Below are positions 5,730-12,263 of a stretch of 64,000 bases of DNA, one piece after another. The DNA comes from Adhaeribacter radiodurans (GTDB taxonomy: Bacteria; Bacteroidota; Bacteroidia; Cytophagales; Hymenobacteraceae). The stretch is taken from positions 3,224,001-3,288,000 of the forward strand of contig NZ_CP055153.1 of the NCBI RefSeq assembly GCF_014075995.1. The letters run 5' to 3'. Under the pieces are notes generated by a model. That model was not told the DNA's origin. It saw only the letters and a program-made list of their open reading frames with translations, and searched no databases. Each line of letters starts with the position of its first letter. The stretch's first letter is position 1. The position numbers and the translations under genes were made by a program.

Positions 5730-6308
5730 ATGATTTTAGAAGCTTTAAAAGCTAGAACTGCCACCAGCCACCGTAATGTAGAAGCTAGTCCTTTAATGCA
5801 ACCCATTGCTAACCGTACGTTAACTCCGGAAAATTACACGCAGATTTTGCGTAAGTTTTACGGTTTTTTTCAGCCTTTAGAAAACGCCATTCACCATGTA
5901 GCTGGTTTAGAATATTACCTTCCCGACTTAGCTACCCGAAGAAAAGCTGCCAGTATTTTGCAGGATTTGCGGGCTATTCACCAGGAAAATATTGTGCTTG
6001 CTACCTTACCCCTTTGCCCCGATGTACCCATTATTTCTGATTTTAATGGTGCTTTAGGTGCTTTGTACGTAATGGAGGGCTCAACATTAGGAGGAAAGTT
6101 TATTTCCAAAATTGTGTATGAAACTTTAGGTTTTACTCCCGAAAACGGAATCGCTTTTTTTAACGGCTACGGTACGCAAACCGGTCCTAAGTGGAAGGCC
6201 TTCCAGGAAGCTTTAAGGCGTTATACTTCCACTTCTACCCAGGAAGAAGCAATTGTAAATTCTGCCACCTGTACTTTTCAAAAATTAGAAGTTTGGTTTA
6301 ATAATTAA
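5730..6308 (+). CDS. Biliverdin-producing heme oxygenase
   Basis: 192 residues from the ATG at 5730; an upstream in-frame TTG at 5706 lies in the terminator tail and is unlikely. Bacterial heme oxygenase features: proximal His14 in LKARTATSHRNVEAS, and the distal-helix motif YVMEGSTLGGKFIS, where the flexible Gly segment lies over heme. The reaction is O2-dependent opening of heme to biliverdin, CO and iron, needing an external electron donor. It lies 13 bp before a bacteriophytochrome core, the classic bphO-bphP arrangement in which the enzyme supplies the chromophore. Confidence 0.92.
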   Translation: MILEALKARTATSHRNVEASPLMQPIANRTLTPENYTQILRKFYGFFQPLENAIHHVAGLEYYLPDLATRRKAASILQDLRAIHQENIVLATLPLCPDVPIISDFNGALGALYVMEGSTLGGKFISKIVYETLGFTPENGIAFFNGYGTQTGPKWKAFQEALRRYTSTSTQEEAIVNSATCTFQKLEVWFNN

Positions 6309-6321
6309 TTATAAATTTTAA

Positions 6322-11100: not shown

Positions 11101-12263
11101 AAGAAAATCTTAAAAAATTAAACAACCAATTAGAAGAACGTATTGGCGCACGTACCCGGGAACTATCAGCGAGTGAAGAGCGCTTCCGGCTTATTTCTCT
11201 AGCCACCAACGATGTTATCTGGGATTGGACCATGATGAACAACAAGGTATGGTGGAATGAAGGTTTTAAAACGATGTTCGATTATACTTCGGAACAAATA
11301 GAGCCTGGGGTAGAATCGTGGTTTGATCGCATTCATCCCGAAGACAAAGATCGGATTATAAGTAGTTTAAACGATGCCATCAATAGCAGCCAAGAGCAAT
11401 GGTCGGCCGAATACCGCTTCCGGAAAGCCGATGATTCGTATGCTTATGTTTTTAACCGGGCGTTTATCATCTTAAACGAAAACCGAATTCCTTACCGGAT
11501 GTTGGGTTCATTAATTGATTTAACTAATTTAAAGTTAGCGCAGGAAGAACTGCGTAAAACTAATGTAAACCTACTGCGCATTAATAACGATTTAGATAAT
11601 TTTGTTTATACCGCCTCGCACGACTTAAAATCACCAATCTCCAACATAGAAGGCTTGTTGTACCATCTGGAATTGGAGTTGGAAAATGCCGATGACCATA
11701 TTCTGGAAATTCTGAGTCATATCAAGAAGTCCGTCGATCGGTTTAAAGCTACCATTAAAGACCTGGCAGAAATTACCAAAGCCGAAAAGTTGGATGCAGA
11801 TGATGTGGCGGAGGTAAACATAGAAGATTTGGTGGAAGATATTAAGCTTAGCATCAATAACTTAATCGAAGAATCAGATGCTGTTATAGAAATTAACTGC
11901 CAGGAGTGCCCCACCATCAAATTTTCTAAAACCAACTTACGAAGTATTTTATACAACTTAATTAGTAATTCTATTAAATACCGCGACCCAGATCGACCAT
12001 TGCTCATCCGAATAGCGACGGAGAAAACAAAGGATCATGCTATTTTAACGGTTAAGGATAACGGATTAGGAATTGAAGAAGCACAGCAATCTAAGTTATT
12101 TGGCATGTTTAAACGGTTCCACAACCACGTAGAAGGTTCGGGAGTAGGTCTTTATATTGTTAATAAAATTGTAAAAAATGCCGATGGCAAAATTGAAGTG
12201 TTTAGTAAACCAAACCAAGGTACTACTTTCAAAATATTACTAAAAAGTGAGTTAGATAGTTAA
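8130..12263 (+). CDS. CheB-CheR-coiled coil-PAS-histidine kinase hybrid
   Basis: 1377 residues. CheB methylesterase at 29-210 keeps the triad Ser38 (GASAGG), His65 (QHLSPTH) and Asp157 (GTGSDGTRG). CheR methyltransferase at about 232-490 has the SAM loop [12 protein letters not shown] and [9 protein letters not shown]. A coiled coil with NEELQS-type heptads covers about 655-740, followed by about three PAS domains (the last with [16 protein letters not shown]). HisKA His1164 lies in [16 protein letters not shown]. HATPase_c covers about 1265-1375, with [16 protein letters not shown] and GSGVGLYIV. No receptor partner or CheA is nearby. It follows the phytochrome core on the same strand and is the best candidate for its output. 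No receiver domain is present. Confidence 0.92.
   Translation: [1377 protein letters not shown]

Follow-up and report, generated by a model that had tools for sequence, protein, structure and literature searches.

The stretch of DNA analysed here, referred to as the window, comprises 64,000 nucleotides of the 6.9 Mb genome of Adhaeribacter radiodurans, a member of the family Hymenobacteraceae, whose sampled genomes include ones matching Pontibacter and Rufibacter contigs. Both Pfam searches and ORF calling agreed with the earlier note that a heme oxygenase, a PAS-GAF-PHY phytochrome and a large hybrid protein are encoded side by side, and the following features were assigned.

5672–5697, plus strand: intrinsic-terminator-like hairpin with a T tract, called by consensus scan only
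5730–6308, plus strand: heme oxygenase (biliverdin supply), 192 aa from ATG 5730 (Pfam PF01126, 1.7e-17)
6322–7863, plus strand: kinase-less bacteriophytochrome, 513 aa, PAS-GAF-PHY only (Pfam and alignment of 74 orthologues)
6361–6363, plus strand: Cys14, the predicted site of biliverdin attachment, conserved without exception in the 74 aligned orthologues
6367–6684, plus strand: PAS_2 domain of the phytochrome, residues 16–121 (Pfam)
6778–7224, plus strand: chromophore-binding GAF domain, residues 153–301 (Pfam), holding PASDVP, R222, R254, H260, Y263, S272, S274 and H290
7327–7854, plus strand: PHY domain, residues 336–511 (Pfam), including the PRxSF motif of the tongue; the chain stops 5 residues past the last conserved helix
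8130–12263, plus strand: CheB-CheR-PAS-histidine kinase hybrid, 1377 aa (ORF and Pfam)
8226–8750, plus strand: CheB methylesterase domain, residues 33–207, without a receiver domain; catalytic S38, H65 and D157 present (Pfam CheB_methylest, 1e-55; alignment)
8829–9596, plus strand: CheR_N and CheR methyltransferase, residues 234–489; a ten-residue SAM motif and CRNMLIY intact (Pfam, 1e-55; alignment)
9714–10064, plus strand: domain without a Pfam match, PAS-like in the AlphaFold2 model with moderate confidence, about residues 529–645
10206–10325, plus strand: Glu-Glu heptad helix, residues 693–732, candidate methyl-acceptor segment (alignment; predicted helix)
10362–10679, plus strand: PAS_10 domain, residues 745–850 (Pfam)
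10782–11051, plus strand: PAS_4 domain, residues 885–974 (Pfam)
11247–11507, plus strand: PAS_3 domain, residues 1040–1126 (Pfam)
11595–11786, plus strand: HisKA domain, residues 1156–1219; phospho-acceptor His1164 invariant in 71 linked hybrids (Pfam; alignment)
11931–12248, plus strand: HATPase_c domain, residues 1268–1373; N-box and DxGxG intact (Pfam; alignment)

The hairpin at 5672–5697 is placed between an upstream gene for a 211-aa protein and the heme oxygenase, just 5′ of the latter, and is likely the upstream border of the transcription unit. ORF calling assigned the heme oxygenase a TTG start and 200 aa (5706–6308), and because homologues align from residue 9 of this ORF, ATG 5730 is the likely start, in agreement with the earlier note. 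Only 13 bp separate the heme oxygenase from the phytochrome. The earlier note had included the heme oxygenase in the cluster, where it is indeed present here, but it adjoins the phytochrome-hybrid pair in only 12 of 74 distinct loci, and so its standing as an obligate part of the module was rejected.

The short phytochrome carries the entire photosensory core of a bacteriophytochrome, i.e. the PAS-GAF-PHY tridomain (Pfam PAS_2, 4e-19; GAF, 2e-13; PHY, 1e-49) with the N-terminal Cys, the PASDIP-type motif, the pocket His, Tyr and Arg residues and the PRxSF tongue. Among the 74 orthologues, the attachment Cys, the PASD(V/I)P core, R222, R254, H260, Y263, S272, S274 and H290 were found to be invariant, and the tongue motif nearly so. 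The Pfam search returned no domain after PHY, and the C-terminal HisKA-HATPase or other output that a canonical BphP carries in the same chain is absent; the NCBIfam BphP equivalog model (NF041576) gave a score of 284 against a cut-off of 1040. All 74 phytochromes end 0–7 residues (mostly 5) past the last conserved PHY helix, and since all homologues share this end point, truncation through a frameshift or an assembly error was rejected; judged from the alignment, the kinase-less phytochrome is evidently short by design. In a phylogenetic tree, the kinase-less phytochromes grouped on a single branch (SH-aLRT 100) that excluded 17 kinase-bearing ones, with long branches meeting at a join that is less certain than this support value suggests. 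A phylum-wide sample of 395 Bacteroidota genomes contained the kinase-less type in 3 of 37 phytochrome-bearing genomes, so that the word ‘unusual’, by which the earlier note had described a light-controlled CheB/CheR-kinase relay, is fair; all three carriers, namely the A. radiodurans genome, G414 and G193, possess the pair.

The hybrid combines CheB, CheR_N/CheR, PAS_10 and a kinase in one chain with the catalytic residues present, conforming to the known class of CheB-CheR-PAS-kinase hybrids, and its CheB triad, CheR motifs and kinase His, N and G boxes are conserved across 71 distinct phytochrome-linked hybrids. The HisKA match was just under the Pfam gathering score (24 versus 26.9). In the hybrid tree, a branch with an SH-aLRT of 96 separated all phytochrome-linked hybrids from the 18 unlinked ones included. 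A fold search with a 397-residue model of the hybrid established PAS folds only, the N-terminal part being moderately confident and hardly probed. Positions that mark the linked hybrids against their paralogues were considered as a candidate interface, and some of them lie in the linker and PAS_3, but the paralogue architecture differs there, and we make no claim of an interface. A second CheB-CheR hybrid of 1457 aa is encoded in the same genome (L132, 5216–9589), which has more PAS domains and a HisKA_3-type kinase and is unlinked to the short phytochrome.

By comparing the orthologous loci across Bacteroidota, we found that all 74 distinct loci have the hybrid directly next to the kinase-less phytochrome and on one strand with it, two contig-end fragments (L127 and L128) being left out of this judgement. 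The hybrid lies downstream in 73 of them, with a median gap of 40 bp and with start and stop codons nearly touching or overlapping in many. The neighbourhood, on the conservation of which the earlier note had staked its proposal beforehand, has thus survived the comparison. Among 148 relatives, 50 genomes carried an orthologue of the kinase-less phytochrome (at least 42% identity, ORFs of 508–562 aa), while the other phytochrome matches were kinase-bearing, about 28–36% identical and nearly all in ORFs >740 aa. In every one of the 50 carriers the hybrid adjoined the phytochrome on the same strand, and a separate search with the hybrid placed the same 50 genomes on top, yielding identical genome lists. 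The survey of co-occurrence that the earlier note had suggested therefore gave 50 of 148 genomes with both members and none with only one. A scan of named genomes widened the carriers to Rhodocytophaga, Xanthocytophaga, Sporocytophaga, Mucilaginibacter, Pedobacter, Paradesertivirga, Desertivirga, Filimonas and Taibaiella, so that the pair spans Cytophagales, Sphingobacteriia and Chitinophagia, with differing flanking genes. The same odd placements recurred in both trees, such as Taibaiella among Mucilaginibacter and a split of the genus Adhaeribacter into two clades, suggesting that the two genes were inherited or transferred together.

No phytochrome-hybrid fusion protein was detected in the 148 and 395 genomes, as judged by the ORF lengths at the matches. 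Outside Bacteroidota, the top plasmid matches of phytochrome and hybrid, in those compared, were on different records or far apart, and two regions inspected there (L184 and L185) were without the pair. In Sporocytophaga (L123, 1–8500) the hybrid comes first, followed by phytochrome and heme oxygenase, and consists of two overlapping ORFs, a break that in this metagenome bin reflects either a frameshift or an assembly error. Taken together, the neighbourhood, co-occurrence and trees make a functional coupling of phytochrome and hybrid nearly certain, and strongly support the suggestion of the earlier note that a phytochrome without an output would have to pass its signal to the hybrid.

The phytochrome-hybrid gap is 266 bp in A. 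radiodurans and 260–367 bp in the three nearest orthologous loci, and is a peculiarity of this bacterium's own lineage. A consensus scan called no intrinsic terminator on the plus strand of the gap. Nor did that strand show a promoter match of the Bacteroidetes type or the sigma-70 type, which is uninformative, because the region upstream of the heme oxygenase yielded no Bacteroidetes-type motif either. The gap showed little conservation among four relatives, and a second promoter could lie inside it.

Between the CheB/CheR half and PAS_10 of the hybrid runs a repeat of the form N-E-E-L-x-S/T-x. Residues 693–732 average 95% conservation, although identity among the hybrids falls as low as 37%, and the 40-residue stretch with the highest conservation in the protein starts at 708; the best stretches within CheB and CheR reach 90% and 83%, respectively. 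An AlphaFold2 model based on 38 orthologues (mean pLDDT 74 overall) predicted a single 91-residue helix (661–751) with a pLDDT of about 90–95 over most of the repeat. In the heptad register that we assigned, Asn occupies position a, Leu position d, and the Glu pair the outward positions b and c. Both b and c are Glu in all 71 linked hybrids over residues 694–723. In distant hybrids 96–98% of the heptads carry Glu at b/c, above the core positions, a tally biased by the choice of frame on the EE count; the Glu pairs are kept in hybrids of Azospirillum, Rhizobium, Nostoc, Sulfitobacter and Spirosoma, where Leu and Asn vary more. A helix contains the pattern EExx[AST][AST] 3.0 times, against 0.15 copies elsewhere in the protein and 0.12 in a helix after shuffling. 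In the methylation helices of chemoreceptors (Tsr/Tar, FrzCD), Glu-Glu pairs likewise follow a heptad register, with two residues and then small or hydroxyl ones after the pair (PMC1079850, PMC2535941). The hybrid helix shares this Glu-Glu heptad pattern and contains EExx[ST][STA] repeats, but with Ser where the Tsr consensus has Ala, and it differs in lying within a protein that itself has methyltransferase and methylesterase domains and lacks an MCP signalling domain.

Soluble PAS_10-HisKA-HATPase kinases resembling the C-terminal half of the hybrids were also observed. Six intact ones (about 355–380 aa, L227–L232), without CheB/CheR, begin just past the repeat, and a seventh (L233) is interrupted; the six may be split-off or ancestral forms of the hybrids. 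The conservation of the EE repeat and the start of the short kinases beyond it led us to hypothesize that CheR and CheB act on the Glu-Glu helix, i.e. that their likeliest substrate would be internal and the hybrid would methylate itself. The conservation could also come from a structural or docking role. The helix belongs to the whole hybrid class, being common to unlinked hybrids, and has nothing light-specific.

No MCP domain was found in 11 of 13 distant carriers of the pair, nor any CheW domain in the same 11, some of which are drafts or metagenome bins; CheW is absent from G193, a complete single-contig genome. Thus the CheB/CheR domains cannot universally serve chemoreceptors. MCP, CheA and CheW, with which a component of a chemosensory pathway would be encoded or at least co-occur, were not linked to the pair in the loci examined, and are present but unlinked in Hymenobacteraceae. 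The one MCP gene of A. radiodurans lies with genes for CheW, CheY, CheA and a CheC-like protein, CheR and CheB being absent from the cluster, and the genome encodes just two CheR domains, both in hybrids, so a chemoreceptor role there stays a rival. This only chemosensory cluster of the genome (L131, 6763–15159; about 2606800–2615200) encodes an MCP of 1645 aa with many repeated, apparently HAMP-type segments, and a single MCP per genome in a long ORF recurs in the sampled Hymenobacteraceae. With MCP and CheW domains absent from 11 of the 13 distant carriers, the relay read from the locus by the earlier note is unlikely to be of the chemotaxis type.

A single-domain receiver is the next gene after the hybrid in L108, L111, L112, L113 and L125 (Sphingobacteriia/Chitinophagia), and Pfam Response_reg confirmed those of L108 (Mucilaginibacter) and L113. 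No receiver stands beside the hybrid at the A. radiodurans locus, and a close orthologue of the Mucilaginibacter receiver was not found in its genome.

In our judgement, these data are more likely than not explained by a light-responsive sensor kinase made up of two separate chains, self-methylation of the Glu-Glu helix included. The phytochrome core would bind biliverdin and switch between two states under red/far-red light; having no output domain, it would act on the adjoining hybrid and so change the activity of the hybrid kinase, which would pass phosphate to a receiver protein, presumably encoded by the next gene in several Sphingobacteriia/Chitinophagia. CheR would add and CheB remove methyl groups, most likely on the hybrid's own Glu-Glu pairs, and as this helix joins the CheB/CheR half to the PAS-kinase half, its methylation could provide adaptation or memory within the same protein. 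Beyond the coupling itself, we infer direct light control of the hybrid kinase, together with physical contact, self-methylation and the sign of the response. More tentatively, the phytochrome may drive in trans a kinase with its own CheR/CheB methylation memory that adapts without chemoreceptor, CheA or CheW, and the same may apply to the large, hardly studied hybrid class generally; this reading as a whole we hold with more doubt than belief.

The closest competitor to this split sensor kinase keeps the signal route and differs in the helix, which would be a purely structural signalling helix, with CheB/CheR acting on a third protein or serving as regulatory folds. This is possible though not our expectation: long helices between signalling domains commonly carry signals (PMC1592074), but a plain coiled coil lets its outward b/c positions drift, whereas here they are Glu throughout 694–723 in the linked hybrids and, in a tally with the frame chosen by EE, predominantly so in the distant ones, and the helix is missing from the short PAS_10 kinases devoid of CheB/CheR. 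Modification of a chemoreceptor by the hybrid's CheB/CheR, whereby light would tune a chemosensory pathway and the hybrids would supply CheR/CheB to the lone MCP, fits the single MCP, the lack of CheR/CheB in cluster L131 and the confinement of both CheR domains to hybrids. We nevertheless consider it improbable, given that the 11 distant carriers devoid of MCP and CheW keep the pair with intact CheB/CheR active-site residues, and that the MCP cluster also occurs in Hymenobacteraceae genomes without the pair.

Slightly less probable still is that the two proteins share a module while the phytochrome works via another partner, for instance a kinase-type phytochrome, and the hybrid answers its own PAS ligands. 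The PAS domains of the hybrid could indeed bind a ligand of their own, and the genome does encode a second, kinase-bearing phytochrome of 745 aa (L133, 5324–7561; 6006594–6008048), adjoined by a 131-aa receiver-like gene (7772–8167); yet many genomes with the pair have no second phytochrome, e.g. G001, G002, G006, G017 and G021, and if the two were not directly coupled, one could hardly account for their strict one-to-one retention, with the hybrid always from a single clade. That the two genes are neighbours only through common descent or joint transcription, with no functional coupling, we regard as scarcely credible: the 266-bp gap leaves room for separate promoters in this lineage, but the two genes are adjacent at every locus from Cytophagales to Chitinophagia despite differing flanks, and their co-occurrence in the 148 genomes is exceptionless.

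Compared with known systems, the phytochrome resembles the canonical BphP kinases, such as Deinococcus DrBphP and Agrobacterium Agp1, in its PAS-GAF-PHY order, attachment Cys, PASD(I/V)P, His260/His290-type residues and PRxSF, and these too are often linked to a heme oxygenase; it differs in being short, with no kinase or other output, in forming a separate branch and in having the hybrid as an obligate neighbour. Other CheB-CheR-PAS-kinase hybrids, which also occur in Pseudomonadota and Cyanobacteriota and are annotated as ‘chemotaxis protein CheB’ or ‘CheR family methyltransferase’, have the same domain order, intact active-site motifs, PAS_10 and Glu-Glu helix, whereas the present clade is phytochrome-tied and on a separate branch, with fewer PAS domains here than in the same-genome paralogue. 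For Ppr of Rhodospirillum centenum, a PYP-phytochrome-kinase, evidence of interaction with chemotaxis proteins has been reported (PMC5812497; PMC2993699). Ppr has its own kinase and a link to a separate chemotaxis pathway, whereas in the present pair it is the partner kinase itself that contains the Che-type domains. In Ramlibacter tataouinensis, a putative operon comprises a heme oxygenase, RtBphP1, a CheY-type regulator and an atypical hybrid kinase, and mutants deleted for either the hybrid kinase or the phytochrome had similar phenotypes (PMC6848086). A heme oxygenase, a phytochrome and an additional hybrid kinase are together there as well, but RtBphP1 retains a histidine kinase domain of its own, and the main text of that paper does not mention CheB.

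Searching the open-licence literature, we found no description of the phytochrome-hybrid pair. Its domains and its hybrid class are known, and the obligate two-protein arrangement is previously unreported as far as searched. If the proposal is true, a phytochrome with its output in another protein would represent a photoreceptor kinase that is split in nature, with possible applications in optogenetics. The open-licence literature found does not state the input or the methylation substrate of CheB-CheR-PAS-kinase hybrids; one such hybrid would here gain a physical input that the experimenter can turn on and off, so that light could be used to probe its function. Should the internal helix prove to be the segment that is methylated, methylation-based adaptation would exist outside chemoreceptor arrays.

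Other genes in the window were also recorded. Upstream of the unit are a 493-aa protein with a histidine-kinase-type ATPase and a cyclic-nucleotide-binding domain (905–2386, minus strand) and a 594-aa protein without a Pfam match (3089–4873), similar to D-apionate lactonase (NF049900, 300 bits against a cut-off of 750). Downstream of the hybrid, 13000–14061 encodes a PA0069-family radical SAM protein (NCBIfam NF033668, above cut-off), which is syntenic in the three nearest orthologous loci only.
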